A DNA stretch of 64,000 bases from Exiguobacterium sp. s124 (GTDB lineage: Bacteria > Bacillota > Bacilli > Exiguobacteriales > Exiguobacteriaceae): NCBI RefSeq assembly GCF_018617485.1, contig NZ_JACSKH010000003.1, positions 62,001 to 126,000 of the forward strand, in the 5' to 3' direction. The translations under genes and the position numbers were made by a program. Position 1 is the stretch's first letter. Each line of letters starts with the position of its first letter. The notes below the pieces were generated by a model. That model had not been told where the DNA came from. It saw only the letters and a list, made by a program, of their open reading frames with translations, and did no database searches. Below are positions 18,348-46,582 of the stretch, one piece after another.

Positions 18348-20033
18348 TTACCAGAGTACCCAACCACGCGCTCCTGGAGGCGCGCTTTCAATCAAGTGCC
18401 AGATTGGAACCGTATATGCAAATGCGATCAAAACAAACGTCACGGTGATCCACAGTTTCCAATTCTCGAAATAGCGCGGTGTGTCCATCGCTGCTTCTTC
18501 CGTCTCGGCGAGCGGGAATTCCTCTTCGCCTTTCGGTGCGAGGAACGACAGGTTGAACATCGAATACACGAAGATGAGAACCGAGATGAACAAGATTGTT
18601 CCCCCAATCGCCATCATGACGTGGTATGGGATCCATTCCCGTGTCAATGCATCCGAGAAGTAAGTCGCTGGACCTGTACGACGCGGGTTCCCGTTCAATC
18701 CTGAAATATGCATCGCATACGACATGATGGCCATACCGAACGCCCAAGTCCCTGCTTGAATCAATCCAAGTTTGTTCATTGCCTTCGTCAACGTACGACC
18801 ACGAAGTACCGGCACAAGCCAGTAGGCCGTTCCGAAGAACGTCAAGGCGACAGCCGTCCCGACTGTAATGTGGAAGTGCCCCGTGACCCAAAGCGTATTG
18901 TGGACCATCGCGTTCAATTGGTGCGAAGCGTTGATGATTCCACCTGCACCGGCTGGAATGAAGAATAACATCCCGACGAATGGTGCAAGGAAACGAACAT
19001 CGCCATACGGCATTTTCTTCACCCATCCGAACAACCCTTTCGCGCCGAGCGCACGTCCACGAAGTTCGAACGTCGCAAAGAGCGAGAATGCTGTCATGAA
19101 TGACGGGATAACGACCAAGAACGTCAAGATGACCTGTACGAACTTCCAGAACGGTTCAATGCCCGGTTCTGTCAATTGATGGTGGAAGCCGACCGGGAAT
19201 GAGAAGAGTAGGAATAACAAGAATGCCATCCGTGCCAACGCATCTGAGAAGATCTTCCCACCGATGACTTTCGGTACGACCGTATACCATACAATGTATG
19301 CTGGCATGAGCCAGAAATAAACGAGCGGGTGACCGAAGTACCAGAACAATGTACGTGACAACTCGATTCCGACTGTATCCGTCCATCCTAATGAGAGCGG
19401 AAGGAGTTGGAATAAAATCGTTGCTGCTACACCGAGTGTCGCAATGTCCCATAGAAGCATTGTCATAATACTCATATAAGCCGGGAGCGGTGGATGAACG
19501 CCTGGATTGTCACGTTTATAATCCGCATACATACGGAACATCGCGAACGACGACAACCACGTTCCGACTACGAACAAGACGAGTCCGACATAGAAGAGCG
19601 GATCTGCCATGAGCGGTGCATAAAACGTATACAAGACCGTCCCTTTGTTGGCCAAAATCATGACCGTTACCATGACGGCACCGATAATCATCGTCCAAAA
19701 GCCGAGCCACGCGACACGTGTCGGGAATGATTCAAAGCGACCGAACGACTTCGCCAGTAACGCATATAAGAGACCAATGATGAACATCGTCGTGAAGACG
19801 ATCCCGAGCATGATACCGTGAGCCGTTAGCAATTGATAATATCCAAAGATTTCAGGGATGACCCCGGTCCGAATCAACGTCTGTGTCAAACCAGCCAACG
19901 CACCGATCAAGACGGCGAGAATCGATACGAGAACGTGACCGTAAGCAAGACGCGCCTCTTTCGCTCCGATACTCGGAACAGGAACCCCTCGTTCCATCTC
20001 CCATTGTTTCAGTTTAGATGATACGTCGTTCAT
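18348..20033 (-). CDS. Cytochrome c oxidase subunit I, ba3 type
   Basis: A 561-aa heme-copper oxidase catalytic subunit with about 13 transmembrane helices. It has heme a/CuB ligands in the expected places: an early His in LLTAHGIMLG, the FWYFGHPLVYFWLMPAY helix with the CuB/cross-link His and Tyr, HH in FPVGFHHQLTEPG, and HFHITVG near residue 380. The sequence is of the B (ba3) class, which works at low oxygen. It begins right after the subunit II stop. It reduces O2 to water and pumps protons. Confidence 0.95.
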   Translation of the reverse strand: MNDVSSKLKQWEMERGVPVPSIGAKEARLAYGHVLVSILAVLIGALAGLTQTLIRTGVIPEIFGYYQLLTAHGIMLGIVFTTMFIIGLLYALLAKSFGRFESFPTRVAWLGFWTMIIGAVMVTVMILANKGTVLYTFYAPLMADPLFYVGLVLFVVGTWLSSFAMFRMYADYKRDNPGVHPPLPAYMSIMTMLLWDIATLGVAATILFQLLPLSLGWTDTVGIELSRTLFWYFGHPLVYFWLMPAYIVWYTVVPKVIGGKIFSDALARMAFLLFLLFSFPVGFHHQLTEPGIEPFWKFVQVILTFLVVIPSFMTAFSLFATFELRGRALGAKGLFGWVKKMPYGDVRFLAPFVGMLFFIPAGAGGIINASHQLNAMVHNTLWVTGHFHITVGTAVALTFFGTAYWLVPVLRGRTLTKAMNKLGLIQAGTWAFGMAIMSYAMHISGLNGNPRRTGPATYFSDALTREWIPYHVMMAIGGTILFISVLIFVYSMFNLSFLAPKGEEEFPLAETEEAAMDTPRYFENWKLWITVTFVLIAFAYTVPIWHLIESAPPGARGWVLW

Positions 20034-20504
20034 TTATTCCACCACCTTGATTTTAGTCGACATCATGTGATGCCCTGTTCCACAATACTCGTTACAAAGA
20101 ATCAAAAATTCGCCAGCTTCCTCGAACGTGTACGTCAATGAGTTGATATGTCCTGGGACAACCATCATGTTGACCGGTGTACCCGTTAACTGGAATCCGT
20201 GGACGACGTCTGGTGACGTCACAAGGAACGTCACTTTTGCACCTTTTGGAATCTCAACATTCCCTGGCGTGAACGTAAATGCTTGCGCGATCATGACGAG
20301 TTCGTATTCATTGTCGCCAATTTGATGTAGCCCAGGTTTGTCGAACGGAGCCGTCTGATTCACTTTTGCTGGATCAATCAAGTCCGCATCTGATGCTGGC
20401 TGATTCCCTGCTGCGAATGCCGATACCCCGAGGACCGTCAAGAAGACCGCGAGTAGGATAATACCAAATGTAAGCCAATATTTTTCTAGTTTATGAATAT
20501 GCAC
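20034..20504 (-). CDS. Cytochrome c oxidase subunit II, ba3 type (CuA)
   Basis: A 156-aa protein with a single N-terminal membrane helix (FGIILLAVFLTVLGVSAFAA) and a cupredoxin domain with the full binuclear CuA set: His in SPDVVHGFQL and LCNEYCGTGHHMM. It receives electrons from cytochrome c. It is short, as in ba3 enzymes. Assembly of CuA needs copper chaperones; nosDLYF and the TlpA-like thioredoxin elsewhere in the window are possible partners (inference). Confidence 0.95.
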   Translation of the reverse strand: MHIHKLEKYWLTFGIILLAVFLTVLGVSAFAAGNQPASDADLIDPAKVNQTAPFDKPGLHQIGDNEYELVMIAQAFTFTPGNVEIPKGAKVTFLVTSPDVVHGFQLTGTPVNMMVVPGHINSLTYTFEEAGEFLILCNEYCGTGHHMMSTKIKVVE

Positions 20505-20826: not shown

Positions 20827-21537
20827 TTATAAACGACATATACCTGCAGGGCAACCTTCGCAGTGACAAAGCTCTTTCAAAAAATCAACATCATGAATGA
20901 CAATCGATTTGGCCGTCGTGCTAATGACCCCTTCTTTTCGCCACTGACTAATCAATCGGTTCACCGTCTCGCGTGGCGCTCCGATCAATTGCCCGAGTTC
21001 ACCGTCTGAAGGATGACGTGGAATGACGATTGTCCCCTCTTCCTCGACACCGTGCATAGCTGCCATACGGAGCAACGTTGAAGCCAACGCCCCTGGCTTT
21101 CCGTACAATAATAAGTCACGTACCTTCATTTCTGAATGCTTGCGCATCATCGACGTCCATCGTAAAATTTCTCCGGCAAATCGAATATCGCGTTGCATGA
21201 GCGATTCCAATTCTCGTTTTGAAATGGTACCAATCGTACTTTCTTCAGTCGTTTCGATGCTGTATGAACTAGGGAAAGTTTCCACGATATCAAACTCACC
21301 AAAGAAATCATCCGAACCATACATGAACATGACGAGTGGATTTCCCTTTTTCGTGATTTTCGTGAATTTGACAGAACCACTCTTCAAGTAAAAGAACTTA
21401 TCACACTTCTCACCTTCCCAACACACGATACTCGCTTTCGGATGATGTTGAATCGTCATCATTTCTAGTAGCAATTGTTTCGTTTCATCTGAGAATACAA
21501 AACTGTTCGGTTGGGTCGTTCCACATTGCATTGACAT
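20827..21537 (-). CDS. fnr: Fnr/Crp-family anaerobic regulator
   Basis: A 236-aa regulator with an N-terminal cyclic-nucleotide-like beta barrel (YLKSGSVKFTKITKKGNPLV, GEFDIVETFPSSY), a long dimer helix, a Crp-type helix-turn-helix (LGQLIGAPRETVNRLISQW), and a C-terminal cysteine cluster CHCEGCPAGIC. A C-terminal 4Fe-4S cluster is the mark of Bacillus-type Fnr. I start at MSMQCGTT, behind GGAGGGAG, rather than at an upstream TTG. Fnr-like sites before the adjacent oxidase operon and near pflB are likely targets. Confidence 0.9.
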   Translation of the reverse strand: MSMQCGTTQPNSFVFSDETKQLLLEMMTIQHHPKASIVCWEGEKCDKFFYLKSGSVKFTKITKKGNPLVMFMYGSDDFFGEFDIVETFPSSYSIETTEESTIGTISKRELESLMQRDIRFAGEILRWTSMMRKHSEMKVRDLLLYGKPGALASTLLRMAAMHGVEEEGTIVIPRHPSDGELGQLIGAPRETVNRLISQWRKEGVISTTAKSIVIHDVDFLKELCHCEGCPAGICRL

Positions 21538-21651
21538 AGGTCGGTGCTCCCTCCACGTTTCATTCGTACGTTCCAATTATGACTTTATTATACAGGAGTG
21601 TGACAGGGAGTATCGAAAAAGTATGTGACATTTCAAACAATCTTTTTCAAA

Positions 21652-30236: not shown

Positions 30237-31697
30237 TCACGAGCGTTGTGAAGGTTCCGGTGGGCGGGCTGGCAAGCGAGACGAGATGACGAACGCGATG
30301 ATGGCCGCGACCATCGCCCCGATAAAGATGCTGTTCAATCCGGTCGCGATGATTTGTTCTCCTTGCAGTCGAACAGATGCGTTCAACGTCTCCGTGACGC
30401 TCTGATTGAAGAAATCTTCTAATGAAACTTGAGATAACGCCTCGCCGTTCTTAAAGTCATTGAGTACGACAAAGTTAAAGACGGCCCCAAACACGGCAAC
30501 GCCGAGCGTTTGACCAACCGTACTCAAAAATGAGTTGGTCGCCGTCGCTGTTCCACGCTGTTGATACGAGACGACAGTTTGCAGGACAACGATAAACATC
30601 GGTTGAGACAATCCGAATCCGACGCCAATCAGCGCCACTGCACCGTATACCCACACATCCGCACTCGATTGCGATAACAGTGTCAACGTGAGTGTCCCGA
30701 TGATCAGTAAACCCATTCCAATCAAGGCGCGCCGTCTCGGAGAAGCCACACCAAGTGTACGTCCACCGATAATCGATGTGAACGTCCACGCGACCGATAA
30801 TGGCATCAACATAAATCCAGCCTCTGTCGCTGATTTCCCTAACACAGCCTGTGCCCAAATCGGGATGTATGCGGACATCGAGACGAGCACCCATGCTGCA
30901 AAAAAGACTGACCCGTTGATGGCAGCAATCGTCGGTTGCTTCAATAATTCAAACGGTAACAACGGAGATGTCGCTTTTCGTTCGGATACGAAGAAACCAA
31001 CTAATAAAACGATACTGAATAGTCCACTGGCAACAATGGTCGTCGTCCATTCATTCGTCTCACTGAATGTAATGAGCGCATATAGAAATGCGGTCGTCCC
31101 ACCCGCGAACAAAAGAGCGCCTTTCAAGTCAATCCGTTCAGTCGTCTCAGCGACTTTCTCTTTATAGAAGATGACGATCATGATGAACGAAAGTAACGCG
31201 AATGGCACGTTCAACAAGAAGACGTAGCGCCATGACAACGTTTCGACCAAAAAGCCGCCGATGACCGGACCGAGTACACCCGATACGCCCCATACGGCAC
31301 TTAAAATCCCTTGAATCTTTCCACGTTCCTCATATTTGTATAGATCACCGATAATCGTCATCGAAATCGGAAGCACCGCACCAGCCCCTAGACCTTGCAA
31401 CGCCCGAAAGACAATCAACTGTTCCATCGACGTGGCTAACCCACATAAGAGTGAGGATAACGTGAACAACCCGATTCCAAACAAGAGGACACGTTTTCGT
31501 CCGAATAAATCCGCAACTTTCCCATAAATCGGAGTCGATACGGCCGTAAATAGTAAGAAGGCCGCAAACACCCAGCTGACGAGCGTTGCCCCGTTCAACT
31601 CACTGGCGATTACAGGAGTCGCAACCGATACGACGGTCCCTTCAATCGCGGCTAAGAAGGTCGCCAACAAGAGGGCAACCGTCACATTTTTTCTCAT
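30237..31697 (-). CDS. MFS multidrug exporter, DHA2 (14-TM) family
   Basis: A 486-aa protein with 14 predicted helices. It has motif A (GKVADLFGRKRVLLFG), motif C-like GVSGVLGPVIGGFLVE in helix 5 and an acidic residue in helix 1 (FLAAIEGTVVSVATPVIA), all marks of proton-coupled drug exporters such as Mdr/EmrB. The start is MRKNVTVA behind GGGGAG. The substrate is unknown. Last gene before the nos block, but separated by a terminator. Confidence 0.9.
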   Translation of the reverse strand: MRKNVTVALLLATFLAAIEGTVVSVATPVIASELNGATLVSWVFAAFLLFTAVSTPIYGKVADLFGRKRVLLFGIGLFTLSSLLCGLATSMEQLIVFRALQGLGAGAVLPISMTIIGDLYKYEERGKIQGILSAVWGVSGVLGPVIGGFLVETLSWRYVFLLNVPFALLSFIMIVIFYKEKVAETTERIDLKGALLFAGGTTAFLYALITFSETNEWTTTIVASGLFSIVLLVGFFVSERKATSPLLPFELLKQPTIAAINGSVFFAAWVLVSMSAYIPIWAQAVLGKSATEAGFMLMPLSVAWTFTSIIGGRTLGVASPRRRALIGMGLLIIGTLTLTLLSQSSADVWVYGAVALIGVGFGLSQPMFIVVLQTVVSYQQRGTATATNSFLSTVGQTLGVAVFGAVFNFVVLNDFKNGEALSQVSLEDFFNQSVTETLNASVRLQGEQIIATGLNSIFIGAMVAAIIAFVISSRLPARPPEPSQRS

Positions 31698-31712
31698 ACA
31701 TTCCATCTCCCC

Positions 31713-31749
31713 AAAAAAATAGTGGCGTCGGAAGGTTCCGAACACCACT
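31713..31749 (-). terminator. Terminator of the nosDLYF operon
   Basis: An imperfect stem (AGTGGCGTCGGAA at 31721 with TTCCGAACACCACT ending 31749) is followed on the minus strand by ATTTTTTTGG, directly after nosF. Confidence 0.78.
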
Positions 31750-31760
31750 TCAACTGTCTA

Positions 31761-32480
31761 TTATTTTGTGCGAGCCACGTGCATTTGACAAGTGTCATCT
31801 TGCGATTCGAAAAAGAATTCTCTTAGCCGTTCGTAAGCGGCTTGTTGTTCATGAACGTTTACCTTCCCACAAATGGTACCCGCTCTCATCATCCAGACTT
31901 CATCTGACAACATAGCCGCCACATCTAATTGGTGAGTTGAAAACACAATCGTCGCCCCTCGTTTCGCCTCTTCGCGTAGTAAGTCTTGAAGCATTCGCAT
32001 CCAGATGGGGTCCAATCCGTTCGTCGGTTCATCTAATAGTAGGATATCTGCCGCATTGACGAGTGCTTGTGCCAAAAGGAGGCGTTGTCGCATTCCTTTA
32101 GATAGTTCGGTGACGCGCTTCTGCTTATGCTCGTACAACCCGACCCGCTTTAGAGTCTCGGGAGTCGGTCGTGCCTCTTGTAGGATCGCATAATAGGCGA
32201 ACGTCTCTTCAACCGTCCATGTGTCATCAAACGAAAAGTCGTCAGGCATATACCCAAAGCTTTGATTGTATTTCCTTCGTTCTGTTGTCGTGTAGCCGTT
32301 CAACTGAATGACCCCGGTGCTTGGTTCGATTGTACCGTTCATCAGATTCAAAAGCGTCGACTTCCCAGCTCCGTTGCTCCCGCATAAAGCAACGATTCGC
32401 CCCGATGCAATCTCTTCACGAATCGGATAGAGCGACCACGTATCGCCATATTTTTTACCTACGTCTATACAATGAATCAT
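31761..32480 (-). CDS. nosF: NosF-like ABC transporter ATPase
   Basis: A 239-aa ATPase: Walker A GSNGAGKST, signature LSKGMRQRL, Walker B ILLLDEPTNGLD and His in STHQLDVAAML. I start at MIHCIDVGKKYG behind GGAGG; this ATG overlaps the permease stop by four bases. Adjacent nosD, nosL and nosY homologs identify it as the NosF energiser of the copper/sulfur module that in denitrifiers matures N2O reductase. No nosZ is present nearby. Confidence 0.85.
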   Translation of the reverse strand: MIHCIDVGKKYGDTWSLYPIREEIASGRIVALCGSNGAGKSTLLNLMNGTIEPSTGVIQLNGYTTTERRKYNQSFGYMPDDFSFDDTWTVEETFAYYAILQEARPTPETLKRVGLYEHKQKRVTELSKGMRQRLLLAQALVNAADILLLDEPTNGLDPIWMRMLQDLLREEAKRGATIVFSTHQLDVAAMLSDEVWMMRAGTICGKVNVHEQQAAYERLREFFFESQDDTCQMHVARTK

Positions 32481-33268
32481 GATGTTTTCCTCCAAGCCAT
32501 TTTCGAAGCAAGCCATAACAAGAGACCACTCGTCGCTAATAAGGTAGCCCAGACTACGACAGATCCAACCGGTTGATTCATCCAAGTTAATAACTGAAGG
32601 TAGACACTTCCGAAAATATCGGGAGACGACACTGATGTACTTGCCCAAATTCGCATCAAATCAAATCCATTCACGAACAGCGAGGCAATCATCCCATTCA
32701 CTTGTATGCCGTAAGGAAGCCAGGAAATGATTGTCACGAGAATCGTCGGCCACAATAACACGAAGACGACCCACGTTAAAAAGGCGAGCAACATCGCCCG
32801 GATTCTCTTACGACCAAGCAATCCAAGCAACGTACCGAGTGCCGTCGCATAAATTGTTAATCCGGTCGCGTATGCGAACAGAATGATCCATGTTGTAAAC
32901 GATTGCCCGACAACGAGCGACGCGATGAGGAATGCTAGTAATAGAACGAGCACTTGTGTGACCAAAAACGAACTGAAGCGAATGAAAATGAACTTCCATT
33001 TCGGATACGTGAATGTCGAAAGCAAGTTCAATCGCTTCGACTCCCGCTCTTGTCCCCAATGAAGCGCAGTCGTCAATAAGATAAAGAGCGGAAGTAATAG
33101 TCCGAGCACTGTGATGAGCGTCGCACTGATATTCGTATAGTCCGCAGCAATCGGCAGAGCTTGTCCGATTCCCCCGAGTAGAACGAGCGTGATGACCCAT
33201 GTCAGGAGAAAGGCATAGTTCTCTCGCTTTCGAAGGCTACGTGCCCATTCCATTCTCCATAAAGACAT
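32477..33268 (-). CDS. nosY: NosY-like ABC permease
   Basis: A 263-aa membrane protein with six predicted helices (for example FLLTWVITLVLLGGIGQAL, FLVTQVLVLLLAFLIASLVV, LLATSGLLLWLASKMAW). The VNGFDLMRIWA segment near residue 205 resembles the NosY signature before the last periplasmic region. It starts three bases after the nosL stop. With NosF it would form a transporter whose periplasmic partner is NosD. Confidence 0.83.
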   Translation of the reverse strand: MSLWRMEWARSLRKRENYAFLLTWVITLVLLGGIGQALPIAADYTNISATLITVLGLLLPLFILLTTALHWGQERESKRLNLLSTFTYPKWKFIFIRFSSFLVTQVLVLLLAFLIASLVVGQSFTTWIILFAYATGLTIYATALGTLLGLLGRKRIRAMLLAFLTWVVFVLLWPTILVTIISWLPYGIQVNGMIASLFVNGFDLMRIWASTSVSSPDIFGSVYLQLLTWMNQPVGSVVVWATLLATSGLLLWLASKMAWRKTS

Positions 33269-33271
33269 CAG

Positions 33272-33832
33272 TTACTGCCCTTCTTCTTCCGTATCCATCT
33301 CCATGTCCATCTCACTATCTTGGTCCATTCCGTCCATCGAACCTTCGCCGTCCATCATCATATTCATCTCGCCGCGTTCCCATGTATGATCTTTCAATTG
33401 ATCAAAGTCCATCATTTCGCCACCGTTTTCTTCCATATACGCTTCTGCGTCTGCTTCTTTTGCGAATGAAAGAATATTGTAAGCCATCGGTGTTTTCGAC
33501 TCTTTGTCATAAACGAACATCGCCTCGTCTAATTCGACCCAATCTTTCGTATTGAAGTCTTTTACATACATGGCAGCAATATCTTCTTCTTTTTGTTCAG
33601 GATACCAATCACGCATCAAACATCCGATATCATCGAACGCATATCCTTTTTCATTCTCCATAATCGCTTCCGCCGCAAACTGTTCATCCATGATCTTCAT
33701 CTTACACACTTCGCACTCTGTTTCTCCCCATTTGATGTCAAACGGTTCTGCCGATGCACTTGAACATGCCCCAAGCGCTAAAGATAATCCTGCTACTGAT
33801 AATAGTCCTGCTACTTGTTTATACGATTTCAT
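33272..33832 (-). CDS. nosL: NosL-like copper-chaperone lipoprotein with Met-rich tail
   Basis: A 186-aa lipoprotein: signal with lipobox LALGAC (Cys 23), NosL domain with the metal motif CEVCKMKIMDEQFAAE (Cys 40 and 43), GYAFDDIGCLMRDW and KTPMAYNILSFA. Residues 155-180 form an unusual Met/Asp/Glu-rich tail (nine Met in 26 residues), a likely extra Cu(I) site. I start at MKSYKQVAG behind GGGAGGA. The start lies inside the end of nosD (14-base overlap). NosL delivers copper in N2O reductase assembly. Confidence 0.88.
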   Translation of the reverse strand: MKSYKQVAGLLSVAGLSLALGACSSASAEPFDIKWGETECEVCKMKIMDEQFAAEAIMENEKGYAFDDIGCLMRDWYPEQKEEDIAAMYVKDFNTKDWVELDEAMFVYDKESKTPMAYNILSFAKEADAEAYMEENGGEMMDFDQLKDHTWERGEMNMMMDGEGSMDGMDQDSEMDMEMDTEEEGQ

Positions 33833-35003
33833 GTCGTTTCCTCCCAAATATCCAAATGATGATGAGTAAAAAGATACTCCCTACGCTCCAGATTGACCCG
33901 TTCCAATGCCAGATCGCCGAATCAGTTTGTGGTGATCCGTCCGTCAACGATACGTCTTCCGGGCTTCGTAATATGTTTTCTAATAGAAGAAGCCCCGGTG
34001 ACCCGTACAACAACTCGAATGCTTCATATGAATCCGTCAATAAGAACAAATATGGATCGGTCCGGAATGGAATCTCACTATAGCCGTCACGATTCAGATC
34101 AAGTGTCGTACCACCCCAAACATTTCCTTGCACCACGTTTTCCGATGACTTGAACATCGTCACGGGTTCTCGATTCCCCAATAGATTGTTTCGAAGAATC
34201 ATCATCCCGCTTGCTTGCTTCAATTGAAAGCCAATATCGTTGCCGTTGATTGCATTCCGTTCAAGGATTGTCCCTTCTGACTGTTCTGCATATAAACCGA
34301 TATGATTTCCGTAAATATGCGTCATCTCGATGATTGTGTCGACAGCTTCATATAACATCAGCCCCGTCGCCGTTCCGCCAAATTGGTCGTGTACATTCCC
34401 ATTTTGAAAAGTGACTCGATCGGTCCCCATAATCATCGCACCTGTCAGGTTATGATGTAGTTCAGGTACCGAAATCACAACATCGGTCGGAAACATCAAG
34501 TGAATGCCGTAACGGGAATGCGAAATGATTGGTCGAACAATCTTGTGCCTAGACCCGTTTTCTATGTATATCCCATCTCGCACTTCTTTCGCGACGACTC
34601 CTTTGAGTTCTGATGCTTCGCTGTTAAGAAGTACGATTCCATCCGCCTGTCCGTTCCCTTGAATCAATGTTCGAATGACCCGCACGCCGTAACTATTCTC
34701 AATCAATAGTCCAGTTCCCGAGGACTCAATGGATACATCGATTAGTTGATGTCCGAGACCTGATACTTGAACGGCTGGGACATCGTCGCCCTCACACTGT
34801 TGAACCGATACATGTTCAAGAACAGCACCCGTCCCCCGAAGAATGAACGCAGGATGTCCACAACTCGTATACATTTCTCCATCCCCATCGAACAATTCGT
34901 TTGATTCGATGACGATTGGTTCAGTCAATGGAGTCCGTGTTTCTTCCGCATTCACATAAGGCATCCAACACATAAACAGAATACTGACTAATAATCGTTT
35001 CAT
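33819..35003 (-). CDS. nosD: NosD-like periplasmic beta-helix protein
   Basis: A 394-aa exported protein: signal peptide (LLVSILFMCWMPYVNAEE), then from about residue 40 to 330 a right-handed parallel beta-helix built of CASH-type repeats (GTGLLIENSYGVRVIRTLIQ; GIYIENGSRHKIVRPIISHS; HIGLYAEQSEGTILERNAIN; DIGFQLKQASGMMILRNNLL), and a C-terminal membrane anchor (IFLLIIIWIFGRKRHE). NosD works with NosFY in metal-centre maturation. First gene of the operon; a CsoR-like copper site lies about 45 bp upstream. Ribosome site AAGGAGGGGG. Confidence 0.88.
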   Translation of the reverse strand: MKRLLVSILFMCWMPYVNAEETRTPLTEPIVIESNELFDGDGEMYTSCGHPAFILRGTGAVLEHVSVQQCEGDDVPAVQVSGLGHQLIDVSIESSGTGLLIENSYGVRVIRTLIQGNGQADGIVLLNSEASELKGVVAKEVRDGIYIENGSRHKIVRPIISHSRYGIHLMFPTDVVISVPELHHNLTGAMIMGTDRVTFQNGNVHDQFGGTATGLMLYEAVDTIIEMTHIYGNHIGLYAEQSEGTILERNAINGNDIGFQLKQASGMMILRNNLLGNREPVTMFKSSENVVQGNVWGGTTLDLNRDGYSEIPFRTDPYLFLLTDSYEAFELLYGSPGLLLLENILRSPEDVSLTDGSPQTDSAIWHWNGSIWSVGSIFLLIIIWIFGRKRHEIV

Positions 35004-35045: not shown

Positions 35046-35061
35046 AAACCCCCATAGGTAT
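35046..35061 (-). promoter_or_regulatory. CsoR-like copper operator upstream of nosD
   Basis: On the minus strand ATACCTATGGGGGTTT closely resembles CsoR/CstR-type operators (an ATACC-T-A-GGGGGTAT-like pseudo-palindrome, from family knowledge). It lies in the short nosD leader where repressor binding would block transcription. Confidence 0.5.
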
Positions 35062-35100: not shown

Positions 35101-35144
35101 TAAAAAAAACACAGACGGCGAAGGGGTCGTTTCACCGTCTGTGT
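35101..35144 (-). terminator. Terminator of the sugar-binding protein gene
   Basis: ACACAGACGG (35109-35118) pairs with CCGTCTGTGT (35135-35144), with additional GAA/TTC pairs; the minus strand continues with eight T. Confidence 0.88.
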
Positions 35145-35149
35145 CTCGC

Positions 35150-45941: not shown

Positions 45942-46508
45942 TTACATTGACGTCTTTTCGATTTGTTGCTGAATCCAGGCTTCATCAACGGGACCGGTCT
46001 TCTTCGCCACAATTACACCGTGTTCATCTAACACATACGTTGTCGGTAACGCGACGACGCGATATTGTTGCTCTACGACAGCCTCTTCATCTAACAAAAT
46101 TGGAAAATCAACCGGGTACTCCTTCAAAAAAGCCTCGACGTCTGCTTTTCCACGTCGTTCATTTTTCGTGACGTTCACCCCAAGGACAGGGATTCCTGTC
46201 GCTTTTTCAAATGACACAAGTTCAGGAAACTCATCTCGACAAGGCGGGCACCATGAAGCCCAAAAATTAATGACTACCGGCGTTCCTTGGAACTGCGAAA
46301 GGGTGAGACCCTCCTCGTCCAACGTATTCAAGGCGAAGTCTGGAGCTTGTTGCCCCACTTCGAGTCCTCCTAAGGCTGATTCATTTTGGACGATAGGAAC
46401 CGCTTCTTCTTGCTTTTGCGACATCATATATTCTTCGTATCCTTTGTAAACGAGCCCAGCAATCAATAGAAGGATGAGCGTTCCGATTACGATTCTTTGT
46501 AAGCGCAT
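45942..46508 (-). CDS. TlpA/ResA-like membrane-anchored thiol-disulfide oxidoreductase
   Basis: A 188-aa protein with an N-terminal anchor (IVIGTLILLLIAGLVYKGYE) and an extracytoplasmic thioredoxin domain: active site WASWCPPC, cis-Pro in VALPTTYVLDEHG. It reduces or shuttles disulfides outside the membrane, typically in cytochrome c or CuA maturation. Second ATG (MRLQRI) has better spacing than the first. Single-gene unit. Confidence 0.92.
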   Translation of the reverse strand: MRLQRIVIGTLILLLIAGLVYKGYEEYMMSQKQEEAVPIVQNESALGGLEVGQQAPDFALNTLDEEGLTLSQFQGTPVVINFWASWCPPCRDEFPELVSFEKATGIPVLGVNVTKNERRGKADVEAFLKEYPVDFPILLDEEAVVEQQYRVVALPTTYVLDEHGVIVAKKTGPVDEAWIQQQIEKTSM

Positions 46509-46582
46509 CATTTACCCCTTGTTTGTTTTACTTAAGATTTCTACACTTAACTTATCACAAACCGCAAAGGAGCGTATGTATC

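Follow-up and report, generated by a model that had tools for sequence, protein, structure and literature searches.

The 64,000-nucleotide stretch of Exiguobacterium sp. s124 DNA analysed here (the window) carries at positions 31761-35003, on the minus strand, four intact genes in an operon-like row with the order nosD-nosL-nosY-nosF. The genes, their flanking features and the ba3 oxidase genes of the same window are as follows:

33819..35003, minus strand: nosD, 394 aa, ATG at 35003; secreted right-handed beta-helix protein with a C-terminal membrane anchor (predicted)
33272..33832, minus strand: nosL, 186 aa; lipoprotein of the Cu(I)-binding type
32477..33268, minus strand: nosY, 263 aa; ABC permease subunit
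31761..32480, minus strand: nosF, 239 aa; ABC ATPase
35046..35061, minus strand: ATACC-N6-GGTTT dyad, ~58 bp upstream of nosD, from an alignment of 13 upstream regions
35106..35147, minus strand: terminator of the upstream sugar-binding-protein gene, a 17-pair stem with a T run
30237..31748, minus strand: MFS transporter gene, 12 nt after nosF, retained upon deletion of nosDLYF
20034..20504, minus strand: ba3 oxidase subunit II, CuA motif CNEYCGTGHHMM intact; possible client, outside the module
18348..20033, minus strand: ba3-type oxidase subunit I, read from sequence alone

Overlaps of 14 bp (nosD/nosL) and 4 bp (nosY/nosF) and a gap of 3 bp (nosL/nosY) join the four genes, and the ATG at 32480 is a likelier start for nosF than the listed TTG at 32648, which falls within nosY. 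NosD matches TIGR04247 with an E-value of 1.4e-42 and 145.6 bits, under the curated cut-off of 300 bits, and PF05048 above the family cut-off; its family profile retrieves the NosD of PDB 7o0y (E 1e-73). The AlphaFold model of NosD (pLDDT 88) has a predicted fold consisting of a right-handed beta-helix and a C-terminal membrane helix, and its top PDB fold matches, with a modest TM-score (0.53), are the NosD subunits of NosDFYL and NosDFY. NosL matches PF05573 in a profile search (E 4.5e-20), and its family profile retrieves the NosL of PDB 7znq (E 1e-11). It carries a lipobox Cys, CxxCxM and DDIGC motifs and a Met/Glu-rich tail, and residues C28, C45, C48, M50 and C76 (numbered from the TTG start at 33847) are invariant in 13 homologues. 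The sole match of the NosY family profile is chain D (NosY) of PDB 7o0y (E 2e-24). NosF matches PF00005 and shows the Walker and signature motifs; its sequence by itself retrieves the PDB NosF (E 8.8e-30), which generic ABC ATPases outscore. With a NosD homologue, a Cys/Met lipoprotein NosL, and NosY and NosF encoded in the same operon, the module belongs to the NosDFYL machinery, and the complete NosD-L-Y-F set proposed in the initial annotation is indeed present as four intact genes with family matches. The accompanying description of the module as shortened fits NosD, which lacks ~45 N-terminal residues of its relatives, and does not hold for the other three genes.

The dyad upstream of nosD aligns across all 13 Exiguobacterium genomes that have the module, matches once in the window against 0.29 matches expected, and may represent a metal-responsive operator. 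A CsoR/MerR-like dyad sought in the upstream regions of other Bacillota is not conserved beyond Exiguobacterium. The terminator that divides the sugar-binding-protein gene from nosDLYF is likewise conserved in 13 genomes. At the other end, the 3' end of nosF (31763-31791) possibly serves as promoter of the MFS gene. The latter is of the DHA2 type, and such a gene adjoins or lies near nosF also in G033, where the module occupies another locus (L096:4541-6001), and in G057 (L093:4801-6363).

Published descriptions assign NosL and NosDFY exclusively to N2O reductase. A NosZ profile search covering the window and the whole genome (2.82 Mb in 15 contigs, 100% complete) identified no NosZ, its single weak match falling on the CuA domain in the ba3 subunit (20.0 kb); NosZ is also missing from all 37 family members sampled. 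The sensitivity of this search was sufficient, since the same profile detects true NosZ at E < 1e-120 in other Bacilli. Inspected by eye, the window's larger reading frames likewise include no denitrification gene. Both the earlier statement that the window holds no nosZ or other denitrification gene and the question whether a nosZ lies elsewhere in the genome are thereby answered in the sense of a nosZ-free host. Because the genome is devoid of NosZ, building the CuZ centre cannot be the task of the module here.

A scan of the NosL alignment over 84,980 species returned 322 relatives. Among the best 80 of these 322 loci all belong to Bacillota, nearly all have the order D-L-Y-F, and none shows NosZ within up to 10 kb per side. 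Across 399 Bacilli genomes, NosD was found in 114 and NosZ in 21, with 94 genomes encoding NosD and no NosZ. The nosZ-linked modules are nearly all of the form Z-D-Y-F without nosL (present in 2 of 18), whereas unlinked modules are D-L-Y-F, and both kinds occur together in six genomes. The NosF tree divides the modules into nosZ-linked and unlinked ones with 3 changes, the fewest possible, versus 27 in shuffles. The Exiguobacterium clade lies near Geobacillus, Anoxybacillus and Thermoactinomycetaceae, its exact place being less sure than the separation itself because some branches of the tree are long. The module is therefore a member of a widespread nosZ-independent NosDFYL variant, real, and neither artefact nor unique, and this lineage forms an ancient branch of its own among the machines of this type in Bacillota. 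All four subunits are homologous to those of the NosDFY(L) machinery of N2O reductase (PDB 7o0y, 7osf, 7znq) and have the same roles, with a lipoprotein NosL, a beta-helix NosD, a permease NosY and an ATPase NosF. The Exiguobacterium module differs from that machinery in having no NosZ, in its D-L-Y-F order, in the shorter N-terminus and C-terminal membrane helix of NosD, and in a NosF that falls outside the nosZ-linked Bacilli groups. Since genome and family are without NosZ and the lineage is nosZ-independent, the module serves a target other than NosZ, as had been surmised; and since the nosZ-free lineage is common, nosD and nosL alone are no sign of N2O reduction.

Modules of this kind have been noted before, in 2012 and 2026, as the nosD4L4Y4F4 cluster of Bacillus azotoformans (PMC3475470) and in Parageobacillus thermoglucosidasius (PMC13068155). 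These clusters comprise the same kind of gene set without linked nosZ, and by NosF the Exiguobacterium clade has Geobacillus and Anoxybacillus modules among its closest relatives. The suggestion of a new, re-purposed copper-delivery system is not supported: with nosZ-less nosDLYF in print, the module is neither new nor ad hoc. In the literature searched, which establishes the existence of nosZ-less modules, we found no account of the whole lineage or of the CuA-assembly neighbourhood described below.

Within Exiguobacterium, 13 of 19 genomes carry the module, always at one locus 12-15 kb away from ba3. Five further genomes have the same flanking genes on either side and no module, with the last 35-45 bp of nosF left. 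The unchanged flanking genes and the remaining nosF 3' end identify these as deletion scars. A sixth genome (G002) holds a decayed remnant in which the N-terminal part of nosD is fused to nosF, nosL and nosY being gone. As the scars are of three types, the module was deleted at least three times. An identical scar is found in G005, G011 and G013 (L100, L101, L102), with the nos+ genomes G007 and G018 (L107, L108) interleaved in the neighbourhood tree; because one scar type is common to non-sister genomes, alleles with and without the module may be exchanged by recombination. Where present, all four genes are under purifying selection (dN/dS 0.05-0.10 within the close group, well under 1), and NosD, NosY and NosF evolve faster than most neighbouring genes. 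Genomes of the genus that lost the module retain caa3, ba3 and Sco. No gene gained or lost in step with nosDLYF was found in Exiguobacterium, and Sco copy number does not track the module, with two strong copies in the genus irrespective of its presence and one in the sister genus. Plasmid linkage was limited to five distant matches, with 0 in Exiguobacterium. Pairs of Exiguobacterium species that differ in carrying the module constitute a natural test set.

The search for copper proteins that could be clients in the s124 genome returned exactly two COX2-type proteins, those of the caa3 and ba3 oxidases, with intact CuA motifs in both. No NirK/multicopper oxidase match was obtained at E 1e-10 in this genome or at 1e-10 in the other listed nos+ members of Exiguobacterium, the sole match in the genus being in a nos- genome (G017). 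A search for Cu,Zn-SOD throughout Exiguobacterium, own genome included, found none, and a cupredoxin search of the own genome and the nos+ members yielded nothing beyond the CuA subunits. Of the typical extracytoplasmic copper proteins, the searches of the genome thus found the two CuA subunits and no others; besides CuA, the CuB sites remain. Across Bacilli, a CuA-type protein accompanies NosD in 113 of 114 genomes, compared with 178 of 285 genomes lacking NosD (counts uncorrected for phylogeny). The one NosD+ genome without a COX2 match (G328) matches a MAG record, and the majority of CuA genomes are without NosD.

The commonest neighbours of the module in relatives are a YtkA-like lipoprotein gene upstream of nosD (PF13115 match marginal or absent), a TlpA/ResA-type thioredoxin gene after nosF, Sco, and a NarXL-type two-component system. 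In a sample weighted to Paenibacillaceae, a Sco, YtkA-like or TlpA gene lies within 5 kb of 46 of 84 unlinked loci and of 0 of 18 nosZ-linked loci (p 7e-6, uncorrected for phylogeny). G047 encodes a nosZ-DYF cluster plus, elsewhere, a CopC-Sco-YtkA-nosDLYF-thioredoxin-CopCD array. Sco, CtaK/YtkA and TlpA function in CuA assembly, and Bacillus subtilis lacking Sco or CtaK (YtkA) is rescued when copper is added to the medium (PMC9145763; PMC13344008). These factors resemble the module in adjoining it in relatives and in their expected action outside the membrane; unlike nosDLYF, none is an ABC machine, and none is linked to the Exiguobacterium module, which no Sco, YtkA or TlpA gene adjoins.

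As the best reading of these observations, with about even confidence for and against, we propose that nosDLYF is an auxiliary machine that inserts copper into CuA oxidases (caa3 and/or ba3) when conditions demand it. Copper as the cargo is inferred from the known family, and CuA as the target is likewise an inference. Cu(I) would be passed on from NosL to NosD and thence to a target outside the membrane, with the NosF ATPase powering copper transfer by the NosDFY-type ABC machine. In Exiguobacterium this target would most likely be the CuA site of heme-copper oxidases, caa3 and/or ba3, and the route would be an accessory one needed under some conditions only, such as copper scarcity or low oxygen. 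In copper-limited P. denitrificans lacking NosL, neither the CuA nor the CuZ site of N2OR is filled (PMC6530538). A conditional role like that of Sco and CtaK would make loss of nosDLYF tolerable. A requirement of the module for keeping CuA oxidases is ruled out, as the oxidases persist in genomes with the deletion. The initial annotation had named the CuA site of ba3 as a possible client. The CuA part of that proposal fits the neighbourhoods of relatives and the failure to detect another copper enzyme at home; the specific link to ba3 does not stand, for ba3 occurs in all 38 sampled family members and nosDLYF in 14, module deletions leave ba3 intact, and a small-CuA match is missing in 29 of 94 NosD+/NosZ- genomes (odds ratio for the association 4.4, uncorrected for phylogeny). 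With caa3 and ba3 both persisting after deletion, ba3 is not an obligate client. More tentatively, and with the balance of our judgement against it, the whole nosZ-independent D-L-Y-F lineage could be a dedicated ATP-driven CuA assembly machine of Bacillota heme-copper oxidases, a second route beside Sco/CtaK and a sister of the CuZ-building NosDFY. Given how common the nosZ-free lineage is, bacteria may load copper into other enzymes by an ATP-driven route, plausibly into the oxidases of aerobic respiration.

Delivery to CuA has to be weighed against broader or different uses of the module. Supply of copper to any extracytoplasmic copper protein of the host (NirK, multicopper oxidase, SOD, CuA), without a dedicated client, appears rather unlikely. 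Earlier authors named NirK as a possible client of the B. azotoformans and P. thermoglucosidasius clusters (PMC13068155, PMC3475470), and 12 of 94 NosD+/NosZ- genomes have NirK; however, 11 of those 12 are from one genus, NirK is missing in the other 82, and the association falls short of significance (p 0.09). Exiguobacterium differs from those two hosts in having no detectable NirK, which was rejected as client at home with 0 matches at 1e-10. Since only CuA proteins were found in Exiguobacterium, general supply and delivery to CuA coincide there.

It is also unlikely, in our view, that Exiguobacterium has an overlooked copper (or copper-sulfur) protein as the client or that the module handles excess copper. 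Repeated loss is compatible with a niche-specific client, yet the copper-protein families searched (NirK/multicopper oxidase, Cu,Zn-SOD, cupredoxin) offered no candidate. With its likeness to a metal-responsive operator, the conserved nosD upstream dyad might point to induction by excess copper; against this, the operator is only putative, and the frequent neighbours in relatives are assembly factors, not efflux genes. That the module is what remains of an earlier nosZ cluster and is itself disappearing is very improbable. The repeated deletions and the decayed remnant in G002 would agree with such decay, but purifying selection acts on the four genes, the metal motifs are intact, and the lineage to which the module belongs is unlinked to nosZ and occurs alongside nosZ-linked copies in six genomes. 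On the NosF tree and the selection data, we rejected nosZ-cluster debris as an explanation.

Several further observations were made in the window and among the relatives. A CRP/FNR-type regulator with a Cys-rich C-terminus (20827-21576, minus strand) is encoded directly upstream of the ba3 genes, which suggests oxygen- or redox-dependent control of ba3. A membrane-anchored thioredoxin of the TlpA/ResA type (CPPC; 45942-46511, minus strand) lies 11 kb from nosD, and its relatives adjoin nosDLYF in Paenibacillus. In G057, heme-copper oxidase genes lie within the same 20 kb as nosDLYF (L093:4-3325). The locus L034 encodes a full-length NosZ, although its genome (G058) yields no match to NosD at E 0.001. 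At L213, L214, L218 and L238 the module has a second NosL gene, giving the order L-D-L-Y-F. Finally, a Thermus brockianus plasmid (NZ_AP025594.1; L239) carries nosD together with two nosL genes and a gene for an ABC ATPase, with no annotated nosZ within ~9 kb, and nosZ-free modules may therefore occur outside Bacillota.
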